DNA of 64,000 bases from Bacillota bacterium (GCA_029907475.1 JARYLU010000014.1:1-64000), one strand, 5' to 3'. Shown: positions 9,645-35,943, counted from the first letter of the stretch. The notes: generated by a model not told the origin, from the sequence alone. Program-made: numbers and translations.

Positions 9645-10367
9645 TTACCGGCGTACGATTGTAACCATATCTAAATCCAAACCCTGACGCTGTATTTCAA
9701 ACCGTTTAGATTGCCTTATAGCCGCCACCGAAATATCCAGGTGAAACGGAAAAGCTGAAGTTAACTGTAATAATTGTTGCAGGATCGTCATTGGGGTAGA
9801 TTCTGAATACAACAGGGCTTCTAAAAACCATAACTGAACAATATCGCTGGCCGGGCCTTTTTTGGCGGTGGGGATATAAACGCCTTTTACAGCCGTATCC
9901 TGGAGAACGCCCCAGTCTACCATCGAACGTACCACTCGTTGGCTCGCCCGGCGAACAGTTGACCTTTCTCCCCACCGCTCCGCCAGCCGGCGGTAAATCT
10001 GCTCTAGAGAAACTTCATTCTGCAGTGTCAACAGACGACCAGTAATATCCGCTATATCGCGAAAAAATGGATATGCCACAAGCGTCATGCCCCAGTGCAA
10101 CCAGAGTCTTGTATCGGGGCCATCCTCGGTTAAAATTCCTAAAGCCCGCTCCTGTAATGACCGGTGCTTCTGCGGTACCCTGACCCAAATCCGAGTTAAT
10201 ACGGTTATGGTCTTCCTGCGTGCCTCTCTACTTCGACATTCTGATTCCAAGAAATCGTTAAGGTACTTCCGTACTTCAGCAATGTTTGTTTCCGTTCCAG
10301 CTTTCCAGGCGGCGGCATCCAGCCATTCCAACCTAACTCTCCGGTCAAAACCGATATTTAATGCCAT
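9645..10367 (-). CDS. brxA: BrxA-like protein (DUF1819) of type 3 BREX
   Basis: A 240-residue protein at the position brxA holds in type 3 BREX loci, immediately after pglZ. The sequence is mostly helical and basic, with a C-terminal half that reads like winged-helix DNA-binding repeats (EQIYRRLAERWGERSTVRRASQRV). BrxA of BREX is a small protein needed for phage resistance, and structural work on homologues shows DNA binding. The ATG at 10367 is two bases after the pglZ stop and is preceded by GGGAGGAGC. It is the last gene of the operon. Confidence 0.75.
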   Translation of the reverse strand: MALNIGFDRRVRLEWLDAAAWKAGTETNIAEVRKYLNDFLESECRSREARRKTITVLTRIWVRVPQKHRSLQERALGILTEDGPDTRLWLHWGMTLVAYPFFRDIADITGRLLTLQNEVSLEQIYRRLAERWGERSTVRRASQRVVRSMVDWGVLQDTAVKGVYIPTAKKGPASDIVQLWFLEALLYSESTPMTILQQLLQLTSAFPFHLDISVAAIRQSKRFEIQRQGLDLDMVTIVRR

Positions 10368-10369
10368 GA

Positions 10370-12319
10370 TCAATGCTCCTCCCAAATCCTGACAAAAGGA
10401 ACGACAACCTCTTCTAAAGATATTCCGCCATGGCTCACAACTTCTTCACCCTCAGAAACAAAGGCCGACCGGCCCCTGGCCAGCAGAACGGAGTAACCCT
10501 GGGGTAAACCAAAACCAGGCCAACAGATGGCATTTTCTATTTCTTCCATCATCTGCTGTCGAAAAACGTCGTAATGATAAATTCTGGCCCGCTCACCGCG
10601 GGACTCAGCCAGGACCCCGTCCGGCAAACGGCCCTTCCCCCTGGCCGTAATATTACCGTGATCCGAAGTCAGATAGACGGCAAATTTGTTTTTAAGGAGA
10701 TGATCAATTAGCTGTATCAGGTAACCCTGTTCGGCCCACAGTCTGATTTGCTGGTGCATACCAGCTGTTCCCAGCTCCATGCCATGCATGATCCTATCCA
10801 CTTTATCTATAACCATACCAACGATCTCGAACTGTGATCCTAAAAATTCTCCAATTTCACTTGCCAACTCGTCACCCAAACCTTTACGGTAGTAGATATT
10901 TCCCCTCCTGACCCCGCTGTCTTCCCAAAATTTATGCCAGTGCTGTTCTTCTTTCGAGGTTGTCGTTAGAGAGTCCTTGAAATACAGGGGCGGCTCTGCA
11001 GCGAACAGTGCCTGCCGTGAGATAGAAGTTAAGGTCGGTACCCAGGCAAAGACCTGGTTTTCCTCGACTCGCCACGTTGGGCACCTGTCTCTCAGGAAAT
11101 TGCGGATAACCAGCCATTGATCTAACGCCAGACCGTCAATTACGAGCAAAGCAATATTTTTTGCTCCTTCTTTGGCACGCAGATGAGCCAGATAACGGGG
11201 TATGTGGTGTACCATTACCGGTTTGGATGTGTAAGAAAGGTTGGCTAAAGAACCATAGCGCACGAGCATCCAGCTCGCAAAGCGTTCTTCCAATTCATCG
11301 TGCAACTCTTCAATTTGCAGTTTACTTTCAGTTTTTACGTCCTGATTTAGTTCACCGCAGAGTACAATCAATTCCGCCCACAATACGGCCAGGCGCTGCC
11401 AATCCCTGTGGGTTGCCGTTTCTCCAGGTATATCTTTTCGTATCTTCTCTAGCAGCCACTTAATCCTGCGCCTTTCCTCACCCTGTTTGTCAAAAAGAAC
11501 ACCTGCCCTGACCCACTCGGGCAGGCCTTTCAAATTCGTAACCGGAACAGGCTTTAAATTCCCCTCTAAGAACAGGTTGTCAATATACACCCGTATGTCA
11601 TAATGGTCAAAGGGGACCTCGGTGAAATTCTCTCCTCTGGCCGTGCTTTCCAGGAATCGACGCCATTTTTCTTGCAGAAAAGCAAAAAAGGCTTCCCTGC
11701 TGGGGATGATGTCTTCCAGAGGCCAGTTCCTAAAAACGATCTTTTCTCTTAAACAATGGATAAGATGTTCGTCCAAAATCGAGGGCACAGTCACAAAATT
11801 ACAATGCCGCGATAACAATATCTTCATCAGTTCGACCGGTGAATTGATAAGGTCGGGTATTATTCCAAAAACGCGTTTCAAGATAAAATCCTTGGTCGCC
11901 TTCTCTCCCAGCGCAGGACCATTGTAATCCTGGTATGCCCTGTAAAGCTTATCCATGTCCGACTTCTCCATAGCCGCAACAACCGGATAGCTGAGTTTGG
12001 GAAAGATATCGGCCAGGCTGAAGAAAAGCTTATGACCCCTCTGCCATACATCGAAGGGCAGGCGGCGCAGTTCCTGCGGGCCGCCCTGTACCACCACTAC
12101 CAAATGTGCCGCTTCGCCCCGGTCCCACCTTGAGCGATAGTTTGCTTCATACGCATAACGAAATGTGATGGGATCACTAAAAGTAAGGACATCAAACCCC
12201 ATTTCCCCTAAGGTCGAGAGAACATCTTCTTCTAAGAGCAAGCCGTCGGGGCCAGCCGCTAAAGTAAGCCTTGATACGCCTGGCTGTAAGTTTTTAAGGA
12301 TGCGGTCGCGCCAGTTCAT
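10370..12319 (-). CDS. pglZ: PglZ domain protein of type 3 BREX
   Basis: A 649-residue alkaline-phosphatase-superfamily protein. The metal-site motifs VIDGLALDQW (about residue 393) and TSDHGN (about 551-556) are intact. PglZ is the signature gene of all BREX systems. I chose the ATG at 12319 (MNWRDRILK) because AAGGTG stands seven bases upstream; an ATG at 12325 would overlap the helicase stop but is too close to the ribosome site. It lies between brxHII and brxA, as in type 3 loci. The reading frame is complete. Confidence 0.9.
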   Translation of the reverse strand: MNWRDRILKNLQPGVSRLTLAAGPDGLLLEEDVLSTLGEMGFDVLTFSDPITFRYAYEANYRSRWDRGEAAHLVVVVQGGPQELRRLPFDVWQRGHKLFFSLADIFPKLSYPVVAAMEKSDMDKLYRAYQDYNGPALGEKATKDFILKRVFGIIPDLINSPVELMKILLSRHCNFVTVPSILDEHLIHCLREKIVFRNWPLEDIIPSREAFFAFLQEKWRRFLESTARGENFTEVPFDHYDIRVYIDNLFLEGNLKPVPVTNLKGLPEWVRAGVLFDKQGEERRRIKWLLEKIRKDIPGETATHRDWQRLAVLWAELIVLCGELNQDVKTESKLQIEELHDELEERFASWMLVRYGSLANLSYTSKPVMVHHIPRYLAHLRAKEGAKNIALLVIDGLALDQWLVIRNFLRDRCPTWRVEENQVFAWVPTLTSISRQALFAAEPPLYFKDSLTTTSKEEQHWHKFWEDSGVRRGNIYYRKGLGDELASEIGEFLGSQFEIVGMVIDKVDRIMHGMELGTAGMHQQIRLWAEQGYLIQLIDHLLKNKFAVYLTSDHGNITARGKGRLPDGVLAESRGERARIYHYDVFRQQMMEEIENAICWPGFGLPQGYSVLLARGRSAFVSEGEEVVSHGGISLEEVVVPFVRIWEEH

Positions 12320-12321
12320 GG

Positions 12322-15159
12322 TCATGCACCTTCTATGTAAATAATGATAATTGCGCTTAGTTCCGGCAAGATTTTTTCCTTCTGCTGTAACCGCAGGGCC
12401 CATTCTTTCTCTTGGCGTTCCAGTTCGGCCAGACGGTGCTGGCGCACAGCGGGCAGTCCAACCCTCATAATGGCCTGCCGGCGAATTTGGAACGCATATT
12501 GGCCTTTTTCCCGCTCTTTCTGCAGGTACTCTTCATACTGGTTCTTGAGTTCCAGGAAAAGATTATGCCCGTGGTGCACGGCTTGCTTCTGCAGTTCTTT
12601 AAAGATTTCCTCAGATTCTTCACTTGAAATAAAACCCTGCATTTCAATCGAGGTTTCTTCCTGTAATAACAAATCCCATATCTTGCGTGCGGTGGGAATG
12701 AGTATTTTGCCGTCTTTTTCATGCTCGAACAAGGGTAGAACCCGAACCTCACGCATGTTTTCCGCCATAAGAGATATCCGCCATAAAGACCAGTAGCCGC
12801 TTATCTGCGGCAGTCCTTTGAGCCTGACCTTCGCAACAGGCTGACCCGCCACGGCCAAGGGCAGGCGGGAGACCAGCCCGCGAACTCTCGGTTCTTCCAG
12901 GCTGAGATAAGACATTGAGTGCTTATCTGCTTCCTGCCGGGAGAAAGCCACGTCCTTCATAGTGAAGCCATCGGGCCAGGTTAAATCATAACCTGCCAAT
13001 TTGGGCTTCACCGCGCCGCCTTCGCTTACCAAAAAGTTAACGGTCATGCGCTCTACCCAGTACGGAAGCGGATGGCCGGAAATCTTCTCCACCAGCCGGG
13101 AATCGAGCTGTTCCTCTTCTCCCAAAAGCCGGTTGGCCGTGGTTACTTCCTGGATGCGCTGCCGCAGAGAAGCCTCCAGCCGTTCAATACGGGACTCAAC
13201 TTCTTCCGGGCTGAGGATAGCCTCTTTATACAAATCCTCGAAATCAGACGCCATCTCGGCCGAGTCGAGAACATCGCTCATCTTATCGACGCCGAAATCC
13301 GCCAGGATGGCGGCCAGTTTTTCCTGGAGGACTTCCTGCACCCGGTATTCAATAGTGTCCTGCAGGACGAAGTTGAGTGCCCGAACAACGTGTTCCTGGC
13401 CGATGCGGTCCACCCGGCCGATGCGCTGCTCCAGGCGCATGGGGTTCCACGGTAGGTCGTAGTTGATGACCACGTGGCAAAACTGCAGATTCAAGCCCTC
13501 GCCGCCAGCATCGGTGGATACAAGCACCCTGGCGGGACCGGCAAATTCCTGCTGGACCCTCCGCCTTTCTTCCAGCCCCATGGACCCGTTTAGACAAACG
13601 ACACTAAAGCCCCTGTTTTCCAGAAACTCCTTGAGCATCTCCTGGGTCGGAATGAACTCTGTAAAGATGAGAAACTTGAGCTCGGGGTCGTTTTCTTCGG
13701 CCTGCAGCTGGTACATCCACTCCAGCAAGGCTTCGGCCCGCGCGTCGGGCAGGGCCTCGCATTGACGTGCCAGGGACAGAAGACGCTTGACCTCTTCCCG
13801 TTCACTGGCGAACGCAACTAAACGGTGCTTCAGAATTTGCTCGAGCTGTTCCTGCCCGTCAAGGTCCCACCAGTCTTCTTCCAGCTCTATTTCACTGTTA
13901 ATTTGAAACGGAGCTTCTTGTTCGATCACTTCCAGTCTCCGTTCCAAGGCGGTCCGGATTGCCCTGGTGCTGCTGGCCACCAGGCGCTGCATGAGAACCA
14001 TCAAAAAGCCGATATAGTTTCGCTTTTCTTTCAGCGCCCGGTTGTATCCTTCCCGCACATATTCCGTCACCGCCTCGTATAGTTCCCGCTGCATCTGATG
14101 CCGGGACTGCCATACCACGGGCACCAGCTGGGTTCGGCGCGGTTTGAACAACGGCTGACCTTTCTCATCAATGGCCCGGCGTTTTTCGGTGCGGATTACA
14201 TACGGAGCTACTCTCTCCCGCTTTATGGACTCGACGCTGGGGAAAGCCTCCCTCTCGAGGAGGGCCATGAGCCGGTGGAATGAATCAGTTTTCCCCTGGT
14301 GGGGCGTCGCCGTGAGAAGGAGAAGATACGGTGCAGCTTCAGCCAGCCCCTGACCGAGGCGGTACCTGGCGACGGTATCCGTGCTGCCAGCAATTCTGTG
14401 AGCTTCATCTACAATAATCAAATCCCAACCCGCAGCGATAAGGTTTTCGAAGCGTTCCCGGTTATAGCGGCTTACCTGGTCTCTGCTCCACCCCCGGCGC
14501 GATTCCAAAGGCTTTACGGCGTCCATGGGCACAACGACCTGGTCAAACCGCTGCCAGACGTTGACATCCCATTCAAAGTACGATAGAGCTGTGATCTCGG
14601 CGGGCATCAGCAGGTGAAAGCGTTCCCGAAAACGGTTTTCCATTTCCTGCACCCACTGCATCACCAGGCCCTTCGGCGCTACCACCAGCGTGCGCCTGAC
14701 GAGTCCCCTGAGCTTCAGCTCGCGCATGATTAAACCGGCTTCTATTGTTTTGCCGAGGCCGACCTCGTCAGCCAGAAGATACCGGACCCTGTTGCCGGAA
14801 ATAGCCCGGGAAAGGGCGTAGAGCTGGTGGGGTAAAGGAGTGACGCTGCCTTCGAGAGGCGCCAGCAGGATATCCGGCTGGGCCAGGCTGTCCGCGATTC
14901 TGGCCGCGGCGACGGTGTAAATCAGCCTCTCCCGGCTGGATATGTCTGCCTCTGTTATCGAGGATAATTCGTTTTCCTGAAGACGGATAACCGCGTCCCG
15001 GCCCGGCACCCAGACGCGGTAGACGTTCTTTCCCCACAGGTCCAGGGCTTCAATAACCTTCACCGGTTCACGATACTCCCGGCTCCAGGCCCAGTCACCG
15101 GGCCGCCATCTGCCATCCCGCCTCAAAGCCGACACCTCACCGGCCAATATATCATTCAT
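12322..15159 (-). CDS. brxHII: SNF2-type helicase BrxHII of type 3 BREX
   Basis: A 945-residue superfamily-2 helicase. Walker A is DEVGLGKT (residues 131-138) and the DEAH box is at 251-254. The C-terminal helicase domain has FTEFIPTQEMLKEFL, VLVSTDAGGEGLNLQ and RIGRVDRIGQ. A long helical tail rich in Glu and Arg follows. Such proteins translocate on DNA in BREX (BrxHII) and DISARM (DrmD); the flanking pglZ and pglX point to BREX. The start overlaps the methylase end by eight bases and the stop almost touches pglZ. Intact. Confidence 0.9.
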   Translation of the reverse strand: MNDILAGEVSALRRDGRWRPGDWAWSREYREPVKVIEALDLWGKNVYRVWVPGRDAVIRLQENELSSITEADISSRERLIYTVAAARIADSLAQPDILLAPLEGSVTPLPHQLYALSRAISGNRVRYLLADEVGLGKTIEAGLIMRELKLRGLVRRTLVVAPKGLVMQWVQEMENRFRERFHLLMPAEITALSYFEWDVNVWQRFDQVVVPMDAVKPLESRRGWSRDQVSRYNRERFENLIAAGWDLIIVDEAHRIAGSTDTVARYRLGQGLAEAAPYLLLLTATPHQGKTDSFHRLMALLEREAFPSVESIKRERVAPYVIRTEKRRAIDEKGQPLFKPRRTQLVPVVWQSRHQMQRELYEAVTEYVREGYNRALKEKRNYIGFLMVLMQRLVASSTRAIRTALERRLEVIEQEAPFQINSEIELEEDWWDLDGQEQLEQILKHRLVAFASEREEVKRLLSLARQCEALPDARAEALLEWMYQLQAEENDPELKFLIFTEFIPTQEMLKEFLENRGFSVVCLNGSMGLEERRRVQQEFAGPARVLVSTDAGGEGLNLQFCHVVINYDLPWNPMRLEQRIGRVDRIGQEHVVRALNFVLQDTIEYRVQEVLQEKLAAILADFGVDKMSDVLDSAEMASDFEDLYKEAILSPEEVESRIERLEASLRQRIQEVTTANRLLGEEEQLDSRLVEKISGHPLPYWVERMTVNFLVSEGGAVKPKLAGYDLTWPDGFTMKDVAFSRQEADKHSMSYLSLEEPRVRGLVSRLPLAVAGQPVAKVRLKGLPQISGYWSLWRISLMAENMREVRVLPLFEHEKDGKILIPTARKIWDLLLQEETSIEMQGFISSEESEEIFKELQKQAVHHGHNLFLELKNQYEEYLQKEREKGQYAFQIRRQAIMRVGLPAVRQHRLAELERQEKEWALRLQQKEKILPELSAIIIIYIEGA

Positions 15160-17816
15160 CCATCCGCATCAGGGCGTTGTCGTAGTACATTAGGAGGCTT
15201 GAGTCTTCCTGAAGGACAGTATCAGGTATGCGCCTGGCCATCTCCACGATGGTTTTGTAGTCTTTAGCCGCCCAGCAGGCCTTGAATCCGGCCCGCAGCG
15301 CTTCGGTACGGAACACTTTCAGCCTGCCCCTGCCTTCTTTATATTCTTCGAACTCTTTGAGGAGGGCCTTCTCGCGCATCTTCTCCAGGTCAGACTGCCT
15401 GCCGGGATCGGGGACGTACCAACAGCCGCTATCGTCTTTCAGGAAGTTCTGCTCCAGAAGCTCGGAGAGCTCCGGCAGTTTCTCGTGCCTAGCTTTGTGC
15501 AGTTCTCGCAAGAACTTAGGGTAGATTTCCTGGTATGTCTGCGGCTTCTTTTCCAGTTCACTGCGCAGCCACTGAATGGAAGATTTTTCATCGGTTACAA
15601 ATAGGGATAATTGCTCAATTTCGTGGACCATCAGGCGCTTTTTATCGTATTCTACCACCTGGTCGGGGAGGAAGTACATTCCGTCTCTTTCCGGGAAACG
15701 CTGTTTTAAGCCTGCGTAAAACTCCGCCGCCCCCATGGGAACGGCAATGCCCCGCTGGACGTGGAAGGCCACCATCCTGTCATAGAGGAGGAAATTTTGC
15801 CGCTCGGCAATGACCTCCGCTTTGCCGTTTTTCTCCACAAAGACCGGCAACTGTTTGAGGTGGGTCCGGACAAAATCCCAGACTCCTTCTTCGGTCCCCG
15901 CCAAAAGATGAAAGCGCTTTTCCAGGCCGCCGTTGGGCTTATAGGCGGAGATGACCAGGTCCTGCTTCACAGCCGGTTGTCGAAGTAACCTGCTTGAAGG
16001 TTCCCTGCTTTTTGTCCAGGGTACGAACATCGGCAATAACAAATCCCGCCCGCATAATGGCCTCCTGGATGGCGTTCCAGATCCGGTTCTGCGAGTTGTG
16101 AAACACCACCGTCATCCACCGGCCGGGCTTTAAGACCCGGTAGTACTCAGCAAAGCACTTCTCCATGAGCTCCTGGTATTCCCGGGGGCCTTTGCCCTGC
16201 ACTTTGTTTTCAACGGCTTCTGGCTTATTGTTAGTAAAAACCCTGAGCCAGGCTTCCCAGAGGAAATTGAGCTCTGAGTACATGAGATTACCACCGAAGG
16301 GAGGGTCGGTGAAGATATAATCGATACAATCACTACCTAGCTTGGTAATATCCCCAGCGTCTTGGCATGATATAATGACTGAATTACTGTAAATAACAAT
16401 ATTCGATTTACTCTTGTATAACTTATTTAATAAGTCAATCTTATCTCTAACGAAGCGTAAGGGTTGATTTTCTTGATTAAGCGAAGAAATATATAATGTT
16501 CCCTTGATTATTCCACCCTTTCTGTTAGTTCTGAAACTGTACATCTTTGTATGGACTAAAGCACTGGCAGTCAAAAACCATTTAAAGAAGAGGTATAGTG
16601 ATGATCTAGCTACTTTCTCCCGAAATGCTGCCAGTACCCACAAATTCCGCCTGGTGTAAAAATGGTGAACATGGGTAATCCCGAGAAGATCGTTTCTCCG
16701 AGATTCTTCTCCCTCCGGCATACGGTCGGTAGGATACCAGTACGGTATCTCGCTCTCCTCAATCTTCCGGATCAGTTCTAGATCGTACTGGTCGGGCTTC
16801 TTCTCAAACCGCTTATTGCCCACAGAATAGTTAATGAGAACCGGCACCTGGCGGGCGCGGGTTATGGTCTGCCCGATGTCCCGGTCAAACACCCTTTCCG
16901 TGGCCCTCTCCAGGGAACGCTTTGTGAGACCCGCCCCGCAGTGAGGGCAGGGAAAATCGTCCCTGACTTTACCTTCTTTTTTGTCTACCGCCACTTCCCA
17001 GAAGACAAGCTCCGCTGAACAATGGGGGCAGATAAACACGTCGGACCAGACGGTGTAGTTGATTTTACCCATGATGGGGTTGCCTCTTGCGTCTTTCTGA
17101 ACTTTCCCGTCCACCACGTGCTGGGTCCGGTACATCCAGCCGCATTCTTTTTCCACTTCGTCCAGAATCCGCCGGGCTTCCCGCTCAAAGACTTGAACAT
17201 CCACCGGTGTGTTGTAGTTGTAGGCAATGAAAGTGGCTGCCGGCGAAAGGTCGACGAGTATGGCCTTACGCGCTCCCAGCTTGGAGAAAGGCTGACCTTT
17301 TTCATCGAGGATAGTGCCATCATCCTGCACAATGTAACCCAGGGATTCTACGGTCTTGCGGTCAGCGCAGAGCTGCGCCGCAACGCCGGTCATGCCCGTG
17401 CCGCAGAAACCGTCAAAGACGATGTCTCCCGGCTCGGTGTAGTGGAGGATATAGCGCATGATGGCCCTGTGGGGCACCTTGGTGTGATACGAGTGTGCGT
17501 TGTAAATGGGGTCGTTCTTACCCTCCGATACATCCGCCGCAAAAGGCTGCCGGCGGTAAGCATCATTATACGGGTCAAAGGGCCTGCCGTGCTCTTTGAG
17601 AAAATCCCCGATGAACGGGTTCGGGCAGGCCGTGTAATAGGGCGGGTCGGAAAGGCTGATGATGTCCTCATCTTTAGCAATGGGGAATCCCTCGATATGT
17701 CTGACCCGGTCCAGGTGTTCTTTGGTAAGTTTGAACCGTTTGGTTTCCTGCACCTTTTTTCGCTCATCGGTTTCTTCAAACAGGGCATCCGGGAAAATCT
17801 GGTTTTCTTTTGCCAC
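15152..17816 (-). pseudogene. pglX: Adenine-specific DNA methyltransferase PglX of type 3 BREX, one-base frameshift
   Basis: The gene would encode about 887 residues. Residues 1-613 read from the GTG at 17816 and include DPPY (57-61), the AdoMet motif FDGFCGTGMTG (134-144), a zinc-ribbon-like region with two CPHC pairs, and the TDPPFGG catalytic motif (about 503). In ACCGGC at 15973-15976 the frame shifts: the upstream frame ends in nonsense and stops, while the next frame continues AVKQDLVISAYKP to 15152. Dropping one base gives TFKQVTSTTAVKQDLV, the wording expected for this family. The enzyme would mark host DNA and may also act in restriction. Whether the shift is real, a sequencing error or an off switch cannot be told here. 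The ribosome site is GTAGGAG. Confidence 0.82.
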
Positions 17817-17880
17817 AAATCTTCACTCCTACCCCAATACTTTTGAAATTGATTCCGTCATCCACCATAAAGATTTGTCT

Positions 17881-20127: not shown

Positions 20128-20704
20128 GGTCGGCCTCCTTCCACTCGCTAAAGCCTTTATACCAGATAAACTCCACCCGGCCAGCGCGGCTGAACACCTG
20201 GTAATGAAGTTGGATTCGTCTTCCCGTGACCGGGTAGTTTAGTTTGGCTGCCGCCACCCGGCCTTCAGTCCAACCCTCGCCGTTCCACTCCCCCCAGAGC
20301 AACACCGTTTCGTTGTATGGGTGGAACGTCACTTGTGGGTGGTCTTTCCAGTAGTCTCGAGTACCGTACTCGTCTGGCGGAGGTTTAATGCCTGCGGGGC
20401 CGACAAAGTGCCAGTCAAAGGCCGTGCCGTTCCGGCGCAGCATCAGGTCGCCGCCCTCCCCGAAGATTCGCCCGCGCTCCAGCAAAGCAATGTTTTGCGG
20501 CAGCGTGCCTTCTTCAAAGGCAACCTCACTGACGTATTCCCATACCCGGAAGGGCATCTCCGCCAGATCCCACTGCTCAAGGAACTTCAGTAAGTCGCTC
20601 TCGGCGCACTGCCCGCCCAGGATGGTCAGATCGGACGGGGCGCACCGGGACCGGCACACCTCGTCAACTATTTTTTCGAAATCCACCCGCGGCCAGAGGT
20701 TCAT
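20108..20704 (-). CDS. csx19: Csx19 (TIGR03984 family) type III-D CRISPR protein
   Basis: A 198-residue protein that fits the TIGR03984/Csx19 family, an accessory found in III-D loci. It is rich in Trp and aromatic beta segments, with FDWHFVGPAGIKPPP, NETVLLWGEW and YPVTGRRIQLHYQVF. No catalytic motif is visible and its role is unknown; a small-subunit-like role in the effector is conceivable. Start and stop overlap both neighbours (ATGA with the tandem-Cas7 gene), so expression is coupled. Confidence 0.78.
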   Translation of the reverse strand: MNLWPRVDFEKIVDEVCRSRCAPSDLTILGGQCAESDLLKFLEQWDLAEMPFRVWEYVSEVAFEEGTLPQNIALLERGRIFGEGGDLMLRRNGTAFDWHFVGPAGIKPPPDEYGTRDYWKDHPQVTFHPYNETVLLWGEWNGEGWTEGRVAAAKLNYPVTGRRIQLHYQVFSRAGRVEFIWYKGFSEWKEADHGERND

Positions 20705-22431: not shown

Positions 22432-24734
22432 TGTGCACCTCCTTTTTCCTCTCGCGCCAACATGGTAATCCATTCGGCCAGGCGCTCGATGCCACGACGA
22501 TGATGGTAAGCATCTTCTTTTCTTAGATATTCTAATGCTTCTCGGATCGCGTTGACGCCTTCCTTACCTGCTTTGGTGAAGAAGTTTTCTTTTGCGCGTT
22601 GACCGTACTCCTGCTTTCCAATGGCTGTGACCAGTTCCTTATCGGGCTGACCGAAAGCCTTTTCAGAAACATCCATTGCAGCCAGACGCTCGATTGCAGC
22701 CAGACGCTCGATTAATTCTTCGCAAGGAGTCTCGCTGTGCATGTATAACCAGCGGGCTAAAGCACCAAAACATTTATCAAATTGCTTATTATACTGTCGC
22801 TTAATTTTCATTAGCACAGACCGATGCTTCTCCAATTCATCTTCCCAACATTCCATTAAAGCTCCCCACTCACTCTCCCGATGACTGCGACCTAGCCACA
22901 TCTGCGAGTCGAGCGGAATGGCACTCTCCCGGATGTTTTGGCGCTGCTCGTAAACCGGATGGTTGAAGGCTATGCGCCCGAAGCCTTCATTGCGACGCAC
23001 GCCGATGCCCTCGGCTTCCAGCCGTTGCATCCACGCCTCCCAGTCGTCCGGCGGGTTTTTTAAGGATATCCGGGCCATCGAGCCGGCCACAAGGGCCAGA
23101 TCACGCCAGCGCGGCAGGCCCAGAGTGGCGTTGAAACCATCCACCATCCTTGTCCGCGCGTAGGCGTCATGTATTTCCACTGGTCCCAGCCCCAAAGCCG
23201 CTTCCAGCCAATCTTCCGTAAAAGCCGTAGGCTGCTGTCCCCATGAATTGACAATGATGGTATCTGTCAACAAAGTTAGAGTGAATGGCTTTGCCGGGTC
23301 GACTTCGCGTTGTTCTAAGGGCCATTGAATCCAAGTCTGGGGGCGGTCGTCGCAGCGTTCCAGCCAGGCGGTAACCTTGCCGTAACCGCGCTGCCGCCCC
23401 TTACCCAGCCACCAGGTTAGCGGCGTTTTTTCGGCAATGCCGATCATCTCCTGCAAGCGTTGCCAGACGGCTTCGCCGGCGCAGAGCAATTCGCCCACAA
23501 AATACTGCCCGGTGCTCAGCACGGTATACCCATACAGGTCGCCTTTGGCCACCCGCTGCGTTTCCCTGTTGATGCGAATGTGCATTTCGGTAGACCGTGG
23601 GGGCGAAAATGTGTATGACTCCCTTTTTAAAATCACAAACTCCCCAACTGGTTCCAGCCGTTTACCACATTTAGGATTAGGGCACTTGTTATGCACCCAG
23701 GCCGGATAAGCACCGTGTCCCTCGCTTTCTTCTTGAAACGGCACTATACTGCACGTCCAAAGAGGTAGCGGGGCGGGAATGGCGGGGTAGAGGTGGTTAT
23801 TAAGAAAGTAGGCCGGATACAGCACCGGGAAAGTGACGCCGCCGCGCAAGAATAAGTACACAAAATCATGGTAAATCTCGGGGTCAGCTAGATTGAAAAA
23901 TTCAGCGGCTCTCCCCGCCAGCGCGCCCTGCAGTATACTGCCGGGGATGAAAGGGCGGGTGTCAAACCGATTGCCGGCAGAAGCGCGCTGGGCAATCAAC
24001 AACGGCTCATCCAGGCGGACGATTACCCTAATTCGCACTACCGCTTCCCTTGGGGCATTGACGGTTTGGATATCAGATTTGATGGCGGGCTTTGTGACCT
24101 CTGAAGGGTTGCCCTGCAGCCATAAGCGGTCAAAACGCTCCAGGAACCACTCCTCCCAGGACTGATCGGCCAGCTTTTGGGCCTCATCCACTCCGGCCAC
24201 ATCGATTAAATGAATGACACACTCCCCAAGGCCGCGCCGCCGGGAGCGCCCCAGCTGGCGTACATTTCGCGCCGCCGCTACTAAAAACGCCGCTTCATCC
24301 AGGGCGGCATCATCGTTGCGGGGGCACGTCACGGTGAAGCAAAACTCCTGACCGGCAGCTCCTTCCTCTTGGGAGAACAACTTCTGCGGCTCGACCCGGC
24401 GCGTACGGGGGTCAATGCGCACTCTCCAGGCGGCCTGCGCGTCTGCGGACCGTTTTTCTACCGGAAGCGCCGAGGAAATCCGCCAGCGCTTGGCCTGCGC
24501 CGGTTTGCCGAACAGCCGCTCAAGGATCTCGTCCGTGGGGTGCTTTGTCAACGGCGGAAGCTTAAGCAGCCGGTAAGCCCCGTCGCGCAGCAACCCGGCT
24601 GCTGTACTGCCCCGCAGCACCGGTGTGCCGTCGGCCTCCCGCAGCAGGGCAGAATCCAGGTTGAAGCCCGTCCCGTATCCCGCGCCGATGTGATAGTTGG
24701 ATTTCAACCTGATTACAAAAGTCAGCGTGAGCAT
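22428..24734 (-). CDS. csx10: Csx10-like RAMP protein (Cas5-group) of a type III-D effector
   Basis: A 768-residue RAMP-superfamily protein. The N-terminus LTFVIRLKSNYHIGAGYGTG and VLRGSTAAGLLRDGAYRLL are RAMP signatures. A Cys pair group (CPNPKCGK) precedes a segment reading HIRINRETQRVAKGDLYGY, resembling the Thr/Arg stretch of Csx10. A glycine loop GKGRQRGYGKV and a second RAMP-like part follow. In III-D complexes Csx10 takes the Cas5 place next to Cas10, capping the crRNA 5' end. The true start is the ATG at 24734, two bases after the cas10 stop with GAGGAGGG upstream; a longer upstream frame is antisense read-through. Assignment to Csx10 rests on size, position and motifs. Confidence 0.8.
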   Translation of the reverse strand: MLTLTFVIRLKSNYHIGAGYGTGFNLDSALLREADGTPVLRGSTAAGLLRDGAYRLLKLPPLTKHPTDEILERLFGKPAQAKRWRISSALPVEKRSADAQAAWRVRIDPRTRRVEPQKLFSQEEGAAGQEFCFTVTCPRNDDAALDEAAFLVAAARNVRQLGRSRRRGLGECVIHLIDVAGVDEAQKLADQSWEEWFLERFDRLWLQGNPSEVTKPAIKSDIQTVNAPREAVVRIRVIVRLDEPLLIAQRASAGNRFDTRPFIPGSILQGALAGRAAEFFNLADPEIYHDFVYLFLRGGVTFPVLYPAYFLNNHLYPAIPAPLPLWTCSIVPFQEESEGHGAYPAWVHNKCPNPKCGKRLEPVGEFVILKRESYTFSPPRSTEMHIRINRETQRVAKGDLYGYTVLSTGQYFVGELLCAGEAVWQRLQEMIGIAEKTPLTWWLGKGRQRGYGKVTAWLERCDDRPQTWIQWPLEQREVDPAKPFTLTLLTDTIIVNSWGQQPTAFTEDWLEAALGLGPVEIHDAYARTRMVDGFNATLGLPRWRDLALVAGSMARISLKNPPDDWEAWMQRLEAEGIGVRRNEGFGRIAFNHPVYEQRQNIRESAIPLDSQMWLGRSHRESEWGALMECWEDELEKHRSVLMKIKRQYNKQFDKCFGALARWLYMHSETPCEELIERLAAIERLAAMDVSEKAFGQPDKELVTAIGKQEYGQRAKENFFTKAGKEGVNAIREALEYLRKEDAYHHRRGIERLAEWITMLAREEKGGAQ

Positions 24735-24736
24735 TT

Positions 24737-26377
24737 TTATCCCTCCTCGTAGTCCCGGCGCGATTTGTCCAGGCTCAAAGCGAAGTCCCAGGCGTCCAGG
24801 AGATCGGGGAGGCCATGCCCGTACCAGAGATCTTGATAGCGGATCACTTGGCGCCAATAACCCTTTTCGCTGCCCCCCAGCAACTCAAGGGCCGCCCTCA
24901 CCGTTACATCCGGGCCTTGAGCACTTCTCTGCTCAATGCGCATTACCAATTGCTCCAGTTTGATCTGCCAGCGAACCAGCTTATCGGGATCCAAAGAATC
25001 TGGTCGGTTTGGGGTATCGTAAAGGTCTTTCAGATCAGAGAGTCGCTTTTGGGGGCAAGCACGCAGATTCCAACGCTGGTCAATCAACTGTTTAACCGGA
25101 AGACCCCACTCATCTCCCTCATCAATTATCCAATAGGGACGCAAGGTAGACCGCACCTCACCTCTTTGCGACTTGGACACCAGGCGCCCACCCCGTACGA
25201 CCTCAAAGTCGAGCACCGAACAGGGTTGCCCAATATCAAGAAACCACCGCTGTTTGCTGAGCCGCTTCGCCTCTTTCAACCTTACCTCGCCGGCTGTGTG
25301 CGCCAGGGCGTAGGGGTGCTTGCTTTTACAAATCACCACTGCTACAGAGACAGTAGGCCGGGGCACCCCATCGCTAAGTCCCACGCGCTTTAGCAGGTCT
25401 ATCATTTCATCCTCGTAAGCCTGACAGAAACACCGGGCAAAATCCAACGCCCACCGAGCGGGTAGTAGGGCAAACAGATCGTCTCCACCCAGAATAAGTG
25501 GAAGCAAAGGAATAAAATTTGGGCGGTTATCTAACTGGTTTTTCTCCATTATTTTTTGGGTTGGTCTGGCCAATGCCCGGCGGATTGCCTGGATCAACCC
25601 CTTAGATAATGCGCGCATCTGCTCAGGACTCTGGCACTTGCCGAACACCTCGCCCATAGAGTTGCCATCGGCCAGCAGGTAGGCCACGTAGCGCCGCGGA
25701 TCGTAATCGGCTATATCCTCCAATGGATCTTTTTCTGATCTCTCCCGGCGTTTTTTCTTGCCGGGCCAATCAGCCTGGATGAGACGTGCTTCCCCCACCA
25801 CTTCTTGGTAGCAATCTTTCAGAAAATCACCCAGCGTATCTATGTTTTCTCGCTCAGCACTTTTATTCAGGCACGAAGTACACACATATTGCGGTTTTTC
25901 GCCCTCATGATAAACTTGATGTGCTACGGCCAATCCCACACCGCACGAAGAACAGAACGCCATATACGGCAAATGCTCCTGGCTCTGCCAGCCTTCGCCC
26001 CTGTTTTTGGCCTGCCGCAAATTTTCTTCGGCCTGTTCACTGGCTTTAGAAAAATACTGTTCGATGGGCTCTTTTACCTCCACCGGCTCGGCTACCGTCA
26101 ACGAACCCCCCGTGGCACGTCGATAAACCTCTGCCAGGTGCGTCCCAAAGTCCCGGGCCTGGTCGAAATCGTCAAAGAGGATACGGAAACTGCCGCCATC
26201 GTGAATGATGATGTCTCTGGCGGGATTACCTCCATAGCGTGGCAACAAATACCCGGGGACCTCCTTACAAAAACGGGAGAGCAACTGGCTGCCACCCACC
26301 ACTTCGCGCAAACGGGAGGAGCGGAAGATAAGATCTTGAATTTTGTCAGCCTCGGCCGCTAAAAGATAACGAGTCAC
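24737..26377 (-). CDS. cas10: Cas10-like type III polymerase/cyclase subunit without HD domain
   Basis: A 546-residue protein. It starts directly with the first palm-like part (YLLAAEADKIQDLIF) and has no HD nuclease domain. A zinc motif with CSSC (142-145) and CTSC (166-169) and the palm segment ADGNSMGEVFG precede the active-site LGGDD (296-300). GGDD is the cyclase motif that makes cyclic oligoadenylate upon target RNA binding in type III systems. At about 550 residues it is shorter than HD-containing Cas10 proteins. The GTG start follows GGAAGGAGG and overlaps the CARF-HEPN stop as GTGA. Single-stranded DNA cleavage by an HD domain is therefore not expected, and signalling to the neighbouring CARF protein is. 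Confidence 0.9.
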   Translation of the reverse strand: MTRYLLAAEADKIQDLIFRSSRLREVVGGSQLLSRFCKEVPGYLLPRYGGNPARDIIIHDGGSFRILFDDFDQARDFGTHLAEVYRRATGGSLTVAEPVEVKEPIEQYFSKASEQAEENLRQAKNRGEGWQSQEHLPYMAFCSSCGVGLAVAHQVYHEGEKPQYVCTSCLNKSAERENIDTLGDFLKDCYQEVVGEARLIQADWPGKKKRRERSEKDPLEDIADYDPRRYVAYLLADGNSMGEVFGKCQSPEQMRALSKGLIQAIRRALARPTQKIMEKNQLDNRPNFIPLLPLILGGDDLFALLPARWALDFARCFCQAYEDEMIDLLKRVGLSDGVPRPTVSVAVVICKSKHPYALAHTAGEVRLKEAKRLSKQRWFLDIGQPCSVLDFEVVRGGRLVSKSQRGEVRSTLRPYWIIDEGDEWGLPVKQLIDQRWNLRACPQKRLSDLKDLYDTPNRPDSLDPDKLVRWQIKLEQLVMRIEQRSAQGPDVTVRAALELLGGSEKGYWRQVIRYQDLWYGHGLPDLLDAWDFALSLDKSRRDYEEG

Positions 26378-27948
26378 GGATGCACCTCCTTCCTAAAATT
26401 AGGGGGTAAAAAGCGACTCATGCCGCACAATTCACAGAGCTCAAACCAGGACAAAGCCGTAGCCCGCCATGGTAATTTGTCCACTGGCTGCCCTACAAAA
26501 TCTTCAAAGTTTGCTTCAACAAATTTCAGCGCTTCCTCAGCCCATTCTTGTGGAACCGAAAAATACTTGTGCGCTAATTCGTTGCGTATATCGAGAAAAC
26601 GCTTCCAGCCATCATTGGCGCTGAACATGTTCGTTTTCTGCCACCACGCCGTCATCGGAGATGGCCTTGGCATAATAATTTCAGGGTCAGTCTTTTTTCT
26701 AAATCCCTCAAAAGTAATATCCTTCTTATACCCGATACCTATCTGTGTTTTATTAGGATCTGATAAAGCCTCAAAGACATTCCATGCATTAGGCGTGTTC
26801 TTATCCAGCGCATCCAAAAGCAAATTCCGCTCGGTTGGGTCAGTCACTAATTGGACCACTCGCGCCAGCATTATGATTTCGTTGACTCCGCCGGCCCGGA
26901 GGAACGTCGAGCGGTAGTCCTGGTTGTATTCAATTAACCGCCTGATACGTTTCAATTCATCGTAAACATATACCTGCAGCATATTGTGATTACCGTAAAA
27001 GCGCCCGGGAATGTTGGCATAGGCACTACCGCTGATTTCATACCATTGATCCCCCAGTTCAACCACCGCACTGGGCTGCTCAAAAGCCCCCAGTGCTTGC
27101 GCCGCCTGTTTTGCGCCCCGAAAGTCGCCACGGTCCCATTTTTCGTAGTAATCCAGAAATGCCCCAAGTTTTTGTATTGGCTCTTCGGTTCCCCGAATTA
27201 CAGTTTTCATCGAACCCAGAATAACATCTAACAGCAATTCACGCGCCTCGCGGAACTGATAACGCTCGTATAACGTGCGCACGTGCTCCCACTCGCGCAG
27301 GGCAAACTCCTGATAGGGGTTGGATAGCTCACCGATCTTACAACTGAACCCGTAAGGGCGCCGATTACTCGGGTCGTAATCTTCAAAATCCACATAGGAA
27401 ATGCGTGCTCCGGCGTACGCCGCGTACATATACGCACCGGTAACCATGCTCTTTTTCCCGCCGGTTACGTCAATAACCACGTCCTTTTCATCGTGGAGGA
27501 CCTCCACCAGTGTTTTAAAGACTGCAGCCGGTTTGTCTTGGGCAGGGTAACCCACTTTACCCGATTCCTGTTCTCCGAGGAAAAGTGGTTCCTTCTGAAT
27601 CAGCCCTTTGTTCTTCAAGTGCCTGACCGCTTTGACTATGTGTGTAGCAAAAATATACCATTCTTCACCCTCATAGCCTTCTTCATTCAATACCAGGACA
27701 ATCTTTTGGGGCTTGTACACGCATACCGATTGCAACAACGGTTCTAGAGAGAAACCGACCAAGAGCACCAGTGTTTCGCAAGGGTTAGCCGTAACGCGTC
27801 CGTATTCCAGTTCAGCTTCCAGCAGGCTTCTATTGCCCAGTCTCCTTTGCCTACAGCAAATGTAGGACACCAAACGGGAATCGAGATCGGAGTTATGAGA
27901 CCAATATTCTTTAGTTACGCGTTTGAGGTCTTCCTCGTTAAAATCCAA
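26374..27948 (-). CDS. CARF-HEPN ribonuclease effector of the type III module (Csm6/TIGR02710-like)
   Basis: A 524-residue protein. The N-terminal CARF domain shows the ligand loop DVTGGKKSM (160-168) and a typical strand AYAGARISYVDFED. A helical middle region follows. The C-terminal HEPN domain has RNELAH (455-460), the R-x4-H ribonuclease motif. By family knowledge, cyclic oligoadenylate from Cas10 binds CARF and switches on RNA cleavage by HEPN. The TTG start has GGGGAGG eight bases upstream. It is the first gene of the CRISPR block, 98 bases after brxC, with no terminator in the gap. Confidence 0.88.
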   Translation of the reverse strand: MDFNEEDLKRVTKEYWSHNSDLDSRLVSYICCRQRRLGNRSLLEAELEYGRVTANPCETLVLLVGFSLEPLLQSVCVYKPQKIVLVLNEEGYEGEEWYIFATHIVKAVRHLKNKGLIQKEPLFLGEQESGKVGYPAQDKPAAVFKTLVEVLHDEKDVVIDVTGGKKSMVTGAYMYAAYAGARISYVDFEDYDPSNRRPYGFSCKIGELSNPYQEFALREWEHVRTLYERYQFREARELLLDVILGSMKTVIRGTEEPIQKLGAFLDYYEKWDRGDFRGAKQAAQALGAFEQPSAVVELGDQWYEISGSAYANIPGRFYGNHNMLQVYVYDELKRIRRLIEYNQDYRSTFLRAGGVNEIIMLARVVQLVTDPTERNLLLDALDKNTPNAWNVFEALSDPNKTQIGIGYKKDITFEGFRKKTDPEIIMPRPSPMTAWWQKTNMFSANDGWKRFLDIRNELAHKYFSVPQEWAEEALKFVEANFEDFVGQPVDKLPWRATALSWFELCELCGMSRFLPPNFRKEVHP

Positions 27949-28046
27949 CTAAGGCACCTCCCCTCATATTGTTTAGGCTGGTTACATGGAAACGCGCTTG
28001 CCTCACGGCAGGTTGTAAACTCTCCATATATTTTCGATCTGTTGCT

Positions 28047-31000
28047 TTATTCCAGAACGATCCTTACTTTCTGTGGATCCTTGCCCCGCGTGAGAGACTT
28101 GAGATAATCCTCAAAGCGCTTCTGAAATTCAGAAATGGTGCAGGGCGTTCCGCCTGCAGCCAGGGCTTTCTTTAAGTCGGCTGCGGTGACCGAAACCTTT
28201 TCCATGCCGGACAGCACTTCCTGAACGGCCTTTACAAACGATGCGTCCACCGTGTACGGCAGCTGCTGTTCTTTGATCACCTGCTCCAGTGCTTTTTGCT
28301 GTTCCGGCTTCAAAAGATAGATGTTTTCCTTTACGGTCGGGTCTTCCAGGTTGGCGATCAATGTCCTTTCCCAATCCTCGCATAGTCTTTCCAGGTCTTC
28401 CTCCAGCTGCCTGAGCGCTGCGTCAGCAGGCAGCTTAATTTGTTCCTGTGCCGGCCGGTAGCTGCAGTGAGGACAGATGGGCGTTTTTTCCAAGTCCTCT
28501 CTGGTGAGGCTGAAACACGTTTTCAGCTCCGCCAGACGGTTTTGGAAGTCCGTAAGCTGGGCCCGGGGCATCAACTCTATGCCAGCCAGCCTGCCCAGTT
28601 TGCTCAACCGCTCATCTTTGAGAAGCTCGGATTTCTTCTGATCGCCGGTCGCATTTAACCGGGCCTTAGCATGGGCCTGCAGGTAAGTCTCAATGTAAGA
28701 GTTCTTGAGCTCTGCCAGCACCTGCACGAGCTCCCGGCGAAGGTCAGTGACGGATGCTTCATCCAGGCCGGATAGTTTTGCCTTGAGCTCCTCACGCCGC
28801 TCCAGGGCTTTTGTCGTCCAACCGGCATCCGCCGGAAGCACGGCTTCAGCGGTGCTGAGATAGGAGGCCAGCGGCATAATCTCCTTTGCCAGGCCAGCCA
28901 GTTCTTCAACCCTCTTCAGGGTGGCAAGGTGCGCCTTCTGCTTGTTAACCTCCCGCTCGGAGTAGCGGAAGTTTTTCAACTTCCCGGGAGTGTTAAAAAC
29001 CTGGAGTGACTCCAGAAACCCTTTGAAACTGGCCAGTTCATCCCTTAAACCGGTTTTCTTTTTCTCATCGAATAGAAAAATACCCCACAAGGATAACTCT
29101 TGCTGGATCGCTGCTTGAGCTTGCACGGTGCGTTCCAGAAGTTTATCCACTGCTTCCTGAAGCTGCCTTACTCCTTCTTCACGAGTAGATTGATTGACGA
29201 TCAGCCCGGGCGGCAGCCCCAAAAATTCAAACAGCGCCTGCAGAGGCCCGACAGGTAAATCCTTGGGACGCTCTATGTGCTTGAACTTACTAAGTTCCTC
29301 CAGGGGGATTTTGCCCAGCTCCTCCAGGTTGGAAGCATCTATCTTCTTTCCCGGAATGCTTAAAGTAACATCGCCGCTGTAGATCAAGCTCGCCAGGATG
29401 ACGACCACCCACTCCGGCTCCAATCTGAAACGGGGCTCAAACTCCACACCGCGAAAGTCTGCAATTATTTCGCCCCGGTTGAGTACCTGGCCGGGACCCT
29501 TCCGGTCCAGCTGTCCCAGGATGCATTTGGCATAACGGGAATTTTGCGGCCTTAACTTATCTCCGTCCAGAAGTTCCAGGGCATCGAGGACGGCAGCCCC
29601 CTGCCTGGTCCTGATGCTGCCGAGGATCCACTTTATCGCCTCCTGGGCAGCCTGAGGCCGGTTCTTTACGGTAACCAGGATGGAGAAGGCCGGGTATTCG
29701 GGCGCCAGCTCCTGGAAGTAGGGTGCCAGGCAAAGGGAACCCACCATGTTCACCAGATCCCCGAAGCGAGGCATGATGAGTGACACTGCTCTTGATCCAC
29801 TCTACGAATTTTTTGGTTGCTCCCCGGTAGGTGACCTCGTATGCAGTGGCGATGTTGTTCCGAAGCCATTCGACTATCTTTTTTAACTGCTCGTTGGCCT
29901 TATTTTCATAGACCTGCCGCGTTCCTTTCGAAGCCGTGCTGGCCATCTCGCTGGCGCCGGCGTAGAACTTAAGGGCACGGTCAAAGTTCTCGTCACGCTG
30001 CACCAGCCGGAAAAACACTTCATCGGGCTTTTTCTCATCCTCAAAGGGCGTTGGGTCAAAGGGCTGCAGAAAGTAGAGGTAAAAGTCCCTGGGCGGATGG
30101 GCGGTAGAACGCTCGTTGGGAGCCCCGAAGAATAAATACCCTAATCGGGTAGTCTTTTTCTCGCGCCACTCAAGTTCGTGTTCCCAAATCTGGAAATTGG
30201 GAACGTACGTCGCTTCGGGGCACTCCATGGCCTGGGCGAGGGCCTTAAAATAATAGCGGTCCAACTGGTTTGGGGTTAAGACTTCCGCTTTCTGCTCAAT
30301 TAGAGAATCAAAGTCGATGTCTTTTTTCAGGTCAAGGTAGTACTGGCCGTTATCCTGATTGAAAGAAATAAATTGGCCGCTCACTGTCCTTAAGATTTCC
30401 CGCAACACGCTTTCAATGGTGGTTTTAAGAAACTCGGCATCCTCTTCCGGCAAGGGCAGGTAAAGGCAGAGGTCGTCGCGGAGTTCTTCGGCCGTGACCC
30501 CTATTGGAGCGTAAATATCTCCTGTTGTCAGCCGGTGAACGCTCAAAGCGTGAATGATGCGGAGGGCCACATGCTTATACTGCGGTCGGGTAAAAGCCTG
30601 CTGGACACGGTTTTCCAGTACCTGGCTCTTCTCAATCACTTCTCGAATGTCCGGGTCACTGCGGAAAGAAGGATTGTCCTTTAAGTTTTGCCAGTAAGAG
30701 TCATAAGCGATGAGGCCGGGTTCCTGTTCCGGTACTTCTCTGTCGAGGAGCTTTTTCATGGCAAAACTTATGGTTTTCAGCACCTCGCGCTTTTCAGCTA
30801 CATAGACCCGCTCAAAAGTTTCCAGGTATGCCGGATGCACGGGGAAAAGAGCGACGAATTCATCCATGCGCTCGGCCAGGGAGCCGTATAATTTGGTGAA
30901 ACGCTGCAGGTGCTCCCTTATGAGAGCCTTCTGCCTGTCATCCTTGCGCAGCAGGCGCTGGGCAACTACGTAGGCTATGTCTTCACGGACAATTCGTATC

Positions 31001-31728
31001 TGCTCAAAGCGGTCTTTGACCCGGCGCAGAGTTTCAGCCACAAACTGAAAGCGCGGGCTGTCGAAAATGGCTTCCTGCACACCCGCCATGAAACGAAACC
31101 GGGTGAGCCGGCAGACCTCCCCGATCTCTCGCAAGAAGTTTAGGTCGAGGATAAGCTCCTGATCTTTGCGCGTACGCAGGTAGTCCAGGAGTTCATCGAC
31201 AACCAGCAAGAGCCCGTGATCCGGGTAAACTTCCTGGAAAGCGTTCATCATCTCAATAAAAGGGTCTTTGTTGTTGGTAACTTTATCGGCTTCAGGAAAA
31301 CGGTATTTCACCCCAAGGTCAGCCAGTTGTTCTTCCAGCTCGGCGCAAATGATGTTCCTGAGGGACATCGTGGTGGAACCGATCTCGGTCCTGATAACCT
31401 CGAACTTGCCAGCGATAGCTTGCGCTTTTTTAGCCACGGCAGGATGCCGTATCTCCGTGGCCAGGTCTGGATATTCGGCTATAGCAGATAGTACCGACAT
31501 TAAGTGCGATTTGCCGGTACCGTAGTTACCGACGATCAAAAGCCCCTTATTATCCTGGGGATGGCCGTATTGGAGCTGGGGAAATACAACTTCCGTAATC
31601 TGCTCGGCCATCCGTTCCGAGATCACGTAGCTTTTTACCAACTCACCGGCCCTGCTTTTGGCATCAGCTTCCCGTAACTGCACTATAGTTTCGACCGGTT
31701 CAAAATGTATCAGGTCAGCGTACTTCAC
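28047..31728 (-). pseudogene. brxC: BrxC-type ATPase (DUF6079) of type 3 BREX, one-base frameshift
   Basis: The gene would encode about 1,226 residues. The N-terminal ATPase has Walker [10 protein letters not shown] (67-75) and Walker [13 protein letters not shown] (173-184). At 29759-29762 the coding strand has GGGG; with three G the reading would be [17 protein letters not shown], joining the two open frames seamlessly. With four G the first frame turns to Gly/Pro nonsense and stops at 29557. The C-terminal 580 residues are helical with coiled-coil stretches and a zinc-like CPHC near the end. A GTG at 29786 could restart the second half, so a split two-chain protein is possible. BrxC is a large ATPase thought to drive BREX assembly on DNA. 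Confidence 0.85.
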
Positions 31729-31758
31729 AGTATTTCCCCACCTTTTCCTAAAATCTCT

Positions 31759-32217
31759 TTACCCCAAAGGACAAACAAGGGCATCGATTTCATAATACTT
31801 TCTGTACTCCGGGTGATCCGGCTCGGCATAAATCAGCGCACCACCCTCGAATTTGCCGTTCCATGCGGCAACGATAGTTCGATTGCGGCTGACTTGTTGA
31901 AGTAAACGTAAAGGGTCCTGTTGAAGAACAGGATCAAAAAGTATTTCTGTATTATCCAGAAGGACAGTGTCCTTTCCCGTTTCGCCTAAGATCGTCTCCA
32001 CTATTCTCGGCAGGCGTAACGCTCGTATTTTAGCGGGATATTCCAGAAGTTTCTGGCTCAGCATGAGGTTCAGATTAATATAGGGATAACCCTCATCTTT
32101 GGCTATTTGAACAAGAATTTTGGTTTTTCCGGTTGCAGCTGACCCAACCAGTAAAACCAGTCGATAATACCTCGACCGGGCTGCTACTATTTGTTTTTTG
32201 AGTTCATCTGTTTTCAT
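31759..32217 (-). CDS. brxF: BrxF, small P-loop ATPase of type 3 BREX
   Basis: A 152-residue protein with Walker A GSAATGKTK (25-33) and a Walker-B-like DTVLLDNTEILFD. BrxF is specific to type 3 BREX and opens the operon, followed by brxC, as here. The ATG start at 32217 has only a modest ribosome site. The frame is intact. It lies 30 bases upstream of brxC and about 50 bases downstream of the AbrB gene. Confidence 0.85.
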   Translation of the reverse strand: MKTDELKKQIVAARSRYYRLVLLVGSAATGKTKILVQIAKDEGYPYINLNLMLSQKLLEYPAKIRALRLPRIVETILGETGKDTVLLDNTEILFDPVLQQDPLRLLQQVSRNRTIVAAWNGKFEGGALIYAEPDHPEYRKYYEIDALVCPLG

Positions 32218-32266
32218 GGCAATCCCAGCACCTGCCTATATATCCCCTGGATAACCACCAAAAGCA

Positions 32267-32470
32267 TCAGGTTTCAGCAGCTTCCCCAAACCCATCTTTC
32301 TTGCTCGCAGGAATAATTATCGCCTTCTCCAGGACGACCTTCCCATCGTCTTCGATTCTAAGAAGAACCCGGTCGCCCTCTTCTATTTCAAGGGCAGTCC
32401 GTATTTCTTTTGGCAACGTCATTTGACCTTTCGGTCCCATTTTAGGTGTAAAAATTTTCTTTTGGGCCAA
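32267..32470 (-). CDS. AbrB/SpoVT-type DNA-binding regulator
   Basis: A 67-residue protein with one AbrB/MazE swapped-hairpin domain: KIFTPKMGPKGQMTLPKEIR, then IEEGDRVLLRIEDDGKVVLEKA. I prefer the TTG at 32470 because AGGTGG lies five bases before it and it starts right at the domain; the frame stays open to 32584. Such proteins act as transition-state regulators or antitoxins. No toxin partner is adjacent, and position at the head of the defence operon suggests it controls that operon (inference). Confidence 0.75.
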   Translation of the reverse strand: MAQKKIFTPKMGPKGQMTLPKEIRTALEIEEGDRVLLRIEDDGKVVLEKAIIIPASKKDGFGEAAET

Positions 32471-32646
32471 GAAAACCACCTGCCAGGAAGTCATGGAAAA
32501 CTGGATAGAGAGACTTATTCGGCAAGAAAACATGAAAATCCTGCCAATTGAAAAGAAAACCCTGCAAAATCTATTTATACTCATGCATTTAAGCCTTTCT
32601 TCATCCTATCTGGCTCATGGCTACAAACTCCATTGGCGTAAAAATT

Positions 32647-35769: not shown

Positions 35770-35943
35770 ATGGCAAAGCGGGAATTTGAGGTGATCATAA
35801 CCCGCACCGGCTCCCAGGATGAACGTGAACAAGCCTACCGGGAAGCGATTCGCTTTCTTCTGTTCCGCCTTCCTGAACAGAGCAGGAAATTCTCGCAAGC
35901 AAGTCAAAGTAAAGTCAAGCTGAAGGAGGGGCAGGGAAGGTGA
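35770..35943 (+). CDS. 57-residue protein coupled to the serine recombinase
   Basis: MAKREFEVIITRT then EREQAYREAIRFLLF, a short charged protein with a basic tail. The ATG follows GGAGGTGGGGGCC. Its TGA overlaps the GTG start of the recombinase (GTGA), so the two are translationally coupled. I do not recognise the family. A role as recombination directionality factor or other accessory is an inference from position only. Confidence 0.6.
   Translation: MAKREFEVIITRTGSQDEREQAYREAIRFLLFRLPEQSRKFSQASQSKVKLKEGQGR

Follow-up and report, generated by a model that had tools for sequence, protein, structure and literature searches.

Organization of the composite operon

The window, a stretch of 64,000 nucleotides from a Bacillota genome (designated G000 in the comparisons with relatives), carries on its minus strand, from 9645 to 32217, twelve genes in the order brxF-brxC-[CARF-HEPN, Cas10, Csx10, Cas7-Cas7, Csx19, CSD-TIGR03986]-pglX-brxHII-pglZ-brxA. 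Strong family matches were obtained for all twelve in profile searches, which bear out the gene identities, the order and the single strand given in a preliminary description of this DNA. The type 3 BREX core is present as a whole and in canonical order: brxF (31759..32217; PADLOC BrxF, 1.5e-63), brxC/DUF6079 (28047..31728), pglXI, the type 3 methyltransferase gene (15152..17816), the brxHII helicase gene (12322..15159; PADLOC, 1527 bits), pglZ-3 (10370..12403; NF033449, 1e-268) and brxA (9645..10385; PADLOC BrxA, 4.1e-97). Both brxC and pglX are read in two ORFs, at 29557-31728 and 28047-29786 for brxC (Pfam PF19557 on each; 1051 and 610 bits) and at 15939-17816 and 15152-16042 for pglX (PADLOC PglXI on each).

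On the same strand, an AbrB/MazE-like gene (32267..32584; Pfam MazE_antitoxin, 2e-12) precedes brxF and is kept at this position in the relatives G224, G262, G100 and G199; it is a probable regulator of the composite operon. The operon is also adjoined by a HEPN and nucleotidyltransferase (MNT) gene pair (33401-34097), a stretch that is 94% identical to a copy near the BREX locus of G262, and this pair may travel with BREX. A large serine recombinase (35940-37568), which adjoins an nSTAND3-like gene, lies near the BREX locus and is a possible agent of mobility.

The type III cassette

The six genes between brxC and pglX, all on the minus strand, encode a type III effector set. The CARF-HEPN ribonuclease (26374..27948; Csx1/Csm6-like; PADLOC CARF1--CARF_HEPN, 5.8e-192) has the HEPN motif RNELAH, and its nearest solved proteins are Csm6. 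Cas10 (24737..26377) contains GGDD and no HD domain recognisable from the sequence, and its nearest solved chain is 8s9t_C of a III-Dv complex. Csx10, a Cas7-Cas5 fusion (22428..24734, the start codon being set from alignments with G224 and L032; TIGR02674, 8.7e-24; PADLOC Cas5_IIId), has as its only solved relative 8s9t_A, Cas7-Cas5-Cas11, and probably includes a Cas11 part. It is followed by Cas7-Cas7 (Cas7-2x; 20701..22431; PADLOC Cas7_IIId, 9.7e-182; best solved chain 8s9t_D, Cas7-2x), Csx19 (20108..20704; PADLOC Csx19, 4.6e-81) and the Cas7-insertion subunit (17881..20127; TIGR03986, 1.4e-119; best solved chain 8s9t_E). The last of these bears a cold-shock domain (CSD, 1.3e-15) at its N-terminus (19940-20127); a CSD annotation is also found on a solved Cmr6 (9arw_H).

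Cas10 together with Csx10, Csx19 and fused Cas7 proteins identifies type III-D, and GGDD and a CARF effector are present as well. As judged from the sequence, the cassette is a type III-Dv-like effector, and the III-D-like set nested in type 3 BREX that had been described previously is thus upheld, with all six cas genes intact. These genes are under purifying selection (dN/dS 0.20–0.39 between the window and G224). Because Cas10 has GGDD and no recognisable HD domain while the CARF protein has its HEPN motif, the cassette should act by cyclic oligoadenylate signalling and not by DNA cleavage through Cas10.

The tight packing that had been reported for most genes of the operon holds within the cassette, where the cas genes overlap or nearly touch (overlaps of about 4 nt at CARF/cas10, csx10/cas7 and cas7/csx19, and of 20 nt at csx19/TIGR03986), but not at its two seams with BREX, which measure 98 nt and 64 nt.

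No CRISPR array is present in the window, and the cassette locus has no array, cas1 or cas6 of its own, so that a complete adaptive locus (array, cas6, cas1-cas2) is lacking. The repeat family that adjoins the stand-alone cassette of locus L032 has 428 matches in the G000 genome. Repeats of this family end in ATTGAAAC and occur on contigs C48 and C50, which are not that of the window; the gene for Cas6 is on C27 and that for a further Cas10 on C39. Contig C48 is almost wholly one CRISPR array, with 208 repeat copies in 14 kb (L168, 126-13934). It is plausible that the cassette is supplied with crRNA in trans from arrays of this kind.

Integrity of the BREX genes

In the deposited sequence, compared with relatives, a frameshift of one base interrupts brxC and another interrupts pglX, so that an intact BrxC ATPase and PglX methyltransferase are not encoded by this BREX locus. 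In the relatives brxC is a single ORF of about 1226 aa (G262, G199 and G100), and so is pglX, with 879–888 aa (G262, G199, G100 and G224). No frameshift was detected in 15 other genes of the window (about 17 kb) compared with the congener G199, and a second type 3 BREX locus of G000 (contig C13; L026, 3355-17219) is intact. Since these 15 neighbouring genes, the six cas genes and the second BREX locus are unbroken, the two frameshifts are more likely to be real than to be read errors. If so, brxC and pglX are probably pseudogenes and this copy of BREX is probably inactive.

G224 also has a broken brxC, with the break at a different place from that in the window. Programmed frameshifting in brxC was considered and rejected, because the G224 break lies elsewhere and the other relatives have single ORFs.

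Within pglX, a stretch of about 300 bp (16330-16630) gives no DNA alignment among G000, G199, G224, G262 and G100, whose BREX copies are otherwise 88–94% identical. This is probably an exchanged target-recognition segment.

Junctions and insertion of the cassette

The left seam, between brxC and the cassette, extends over 27949..28046, and the right seam, between the cassette and pglX, over 17817..17880, both on the minus strand. A sequence scan revealed no promoter-like or terminator-like site on the coding strand of either seam, which is compatible with co-transcription of the cassette and the BREX genes.

The brxC-pglX junction, which holds 10.2 kb in the window, is an empty site in G262 and G100, members of other families of the phylum, where 14 nt separate the stop codon of brxC from the start of pglX. 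The BREX proteins of these two genomes are mostly 89–98% identical to those of the window (76–77% for the N-terminal part of PglX), and the DNA identity of brxC across families is 92–94%. The converse arrangement, with the same six cassette genes (70–82% identical) and no BREX, is found at L032 (UBA3572), where the neighbours are type I-B genes, cas4-cas1 and an array. The DNA homology between the window and L032 ends at the stop codon of the last cas gene, at the right seam.

In G199 a type III-C cassette occupies the same junction, and between it and pglX lie 50 nt that imperfectly duplicate the 3' end of brxC (38/50 identical; none of 500 shuffles was as good). From its sequence, this copy is taken as a scar of insertion. 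A scar of this type was not found at the seams of G000 or G224.

G224 belongs to another genus and was assembled independently (contig CADDZA010000001.1). It has the same nested layout, with conserved seams and beside the same chromosomal genes as in the window; confinement of the nesting to a single genome, which the preliminary description had named as a finding that would count against it, is therefore excluded. The DNA identity between the window and G224 is 88–92% throughout BREX and the cassette, versus about 74% in the flanking genes, a pattern indicating that the BREX/III-D composite moved as a unit between the two genera. At synonymous sites, the cas genes and several BREX genes have diverged to a similar extent (about 0.2–0.33); the values for brxF and brxHII are lower, and that for the C-terminal part of pglX is higher. 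The other BREX genes are also under purifying selection.

Recurrence at BREX junctions

To the phylum samples G237 was added, giving 28 readable type 3 BREX loci, all from one phylum. Most of them have little or nothing between brxC and pglX. Type III effector sets are carried by six of the 28, inside BREX in five and adjoining brxA in the sixth. III-D lies at brxC|pglX in G000 and G224, and III-C at the same junction in G199. In G286 and G172, which represent two other families, III-C lies between pglX and brxHII, and in G237, from a third family, it follows brxA directly on the same strand, 46–76 nt away by ORF or match. All six insertions lie at gene boundaries and follow the orientation of the operon.

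In a tree of Cas10 from 22 III-C loci, association with BREX must have arisen four times independently, and the sequence comparisons indicate no fewer than five independent captures of type III cassettes at junctions between BREX genes. G112:C83, to which the III-C cassette of G199 is most closely related (63–85%), is outside BREX. Among the III-C Cas10 proteins, those of G199 and G172 carry the HD motif and lack GGDD, as is expected for III-C (PMC12669027), and the equivalent HD motif in G286 looks degenerate. III-D with a cyclase and III-C without GGDD imply that the captured modules differ in action; what they share is that they are array-less effector sets. Among 80 TIGR03986 loci in genome_contigs, BREX is nearby only in L031, G224's own contig. 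The III-D composite is therefore rare, and the evidence that type III nesting in BREX recurs comes mainly from III-C and the survey of junctions.

Other defence genes are also present at BREX junctions: an Mrr-type REase in G199, SIR2-HerA in G286 and G333, a DUF262/HEC-05-like gene in G333, an OLD/AriA-like gene with a partner in G112, a DruE-like helicase gene that adjoins brxHII in G277, and PDC-M34A with a second small gene between pglX and brxHII in the second BREX locus of G000. The layout of the window is thus one case of a wider pattern, in which two type III subtypes and other defences occupy BREX junctions.

Relation to known systems

The window shares with type 3 BREX (brxF-brxC-pglX-brxHII-pglZ-brxA) all six core genes, their order and their common strand, and differs from it in that 10.2 kb of type III genes separate brxC from pglX and that both of these BREX genes are frameshifted. 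With the III-Dv system of Synechocystis (PMC11026444, PDB 8s9t) the cassette shares the order cas10, cas7-cas5(-cas11), cas7-2x, csx19, cas7-insertion and a Csx1/Csm6-type gene upstream, and the chains of 8s9t are the nearest solved relatives for four of its five subunits. In contrast to that system, the locus of the cassette includes neither an array nor cas6 or adaptation genes, the cassette sits in BREX, and its TIGR03986 subunit has the N-terminal cold-shock domain. Many III-B and III-C loci are likewise without arrays (PMC12669027), but the present cassette is hosted by a BREX operon and not by a CRISPR locus.

A second defence inside or beside the core genes is known from BREX loci with embedded BrxU/GmrSD, PARIS-like or HEPN genes (PMC8565348, PMC12839542), and embedded nuclease effectors are described in the 2026 BREX survey (PMC12839542). 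The cargo described here differs in being a multi-subunit, RNA-guided CRISPR effector, and in being of two subtypes. Neither Cas10 nor type III cargo is mentioned in the main text of that survey, and BREX is not mentioned in the 2025 CRISPR classification (PMC12669027). No system with the layout of the window was found in the searchable literature, in agreement with the preliminary description. Within that literature, nuclease cargo in BREX is described and type III CRISPR cargo is not.

Origin and role of the composite

The junctions of type 3 BREX may be regarded as cargo sites for whole defence cassettes, with the array-less III-Dv cassette at brxC|pglX as the present case; a probability of about 0.72 is assigned to this reading. 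Under it, cassettes would enter at brxC|pglX, at pglX|brxHII or after brxA, in the operon's own orientation, and would be transcribed together with BREX. The crRNAs, coming from chromosomal arrays elsewhere and with Cas6 provided in trans, would load a complex of Cas10, Csx10, Cas7 and Csx19. Its Cas7 subunits would cut phage RNA, and recognition of the target would cause Cas10 to make cyclic oligoadenylate, by which the CARF-HEPN ribonuclease would be switched on.

Several other explanations bear on the same observations. That the nesting is an assembly chimera might be suspected from the 114 contigs of the assembly from which the window comes, but this is scarcely credible, being refuted by the homologous seams in G224. 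Plain accretion in a defence island, by which the junctions would be tolerant insertion points with no meaning beyond shared expression, has somewhat less than an even chance of being correct. The cargo is indeed diverse and unrelated, both cassettes also live outside BREX (L032 for III-D, G112:C83 for III-C), and BREX moves horizontally, as seen from the identity of brxC across families. Such accretion, however, does not readily account for six cases that are all at gene boundaries and operon-oriented, nor for six type III-bearing loci among 28 when about 0.7 would be expected (P(≥5) about 6e-4; a rough estimate that assumes 100 kb of defence islands per genome). Decay, in which the type III cassette would persist amid a degenerating BREX operon and rely on the BREX promoter, is unlikely as the explanation. 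Core genes are broken in three of the six type III-bearing loci (G000, G224 and G286) and in one of the 22 others (Fisher test, 0.02; with two fragmentary loci included, 0.075; few loci were sampled, and the related ones among them are not independent), which weakly suggests that the type III cargo can outlive its BREX shell. Both BREX and the cassette are intact in G199 and G172, however, the other BREX genes are under purifying selection, and assembly errors may have contributed to the breaks.

The preliminary description had further proposed that one long transcript may make both defences and that the CRISPR part may be a back-up for BREX. The broken brxC and pglX weaken the first of these proposals in the window while the seam sequences fit it, and both are plausible. 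Full functional integration, in which BREX would block unmodified phage DNA and phages that evade or inhibit BREX would be recognised through their transcripts by the co-expressed type III complex, with HEPN-driven abortive infection as the outcome, is advanced only tentatively, with the odds against it. The shared strand, the tight seams without a coding-strand terminator match, the movement of the composite as a unit between two genera and the earlier proposal of back-up effectors in BREX (PMC12839542) are consistent with it; the broken brxC and pglX in the window and the broken brxC in G224 imply that the cassette can do without a functional BREX, and the different actions of the captured subtypes (III-D with cyclase and CARF-HEPN, III-C without GGDD) and the many other cargoes in the same junctions also argue against it. 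It is comparably speculative to extend the cargo-site reading to a modular chassis, whose junctions would dock RNA-guided type III effectors and provide two-tier immunity from one operon, with methylation-based DNA exclusion followed by crRNA-guided RNA surveillance and abortive signalling. Such a chassis would capture cassettes and exchange them, as with III-D and III-C at one junction within a single genus, and a cassette could persist beyond the BREX shell.

The BREX/type III composite joins two defence classes that are usually studied apart. The relatives are natural controls, since nearly the same BREX occurs with an empty junction, with III-D, with III-C or with other cargo, and they allow a direct test of whether there is cooperation between an embedded defence and the system that hosts it, or only a shared transcript. 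BREX gene junctions are also suggested as a place to find new defence modules.

Variation in other type 3 BREX loci

In G238 (L119, 4969-10482), genes for proteins of 1421 aa and 359 aa lie between pglX and brxHII; the former has no PADLOC match and the latter no NCBIfam match, and the two are possible new defence cargo. The brxHII gene is gone without trace between pglX and pglZ in G100 (L030, 10110-10147), the rest of the operon being 89–97% identical, and it is also absent from several other type 3 loci. A search for BrxHII on plasmids gave three distant matches. In G237 (L180, 9890-11344) a short PglZ of about 498 aa is encoded, without the middle part of other BREX-3 PglZ proteins, and PglZ frames near 498 aa are present in several genomes.
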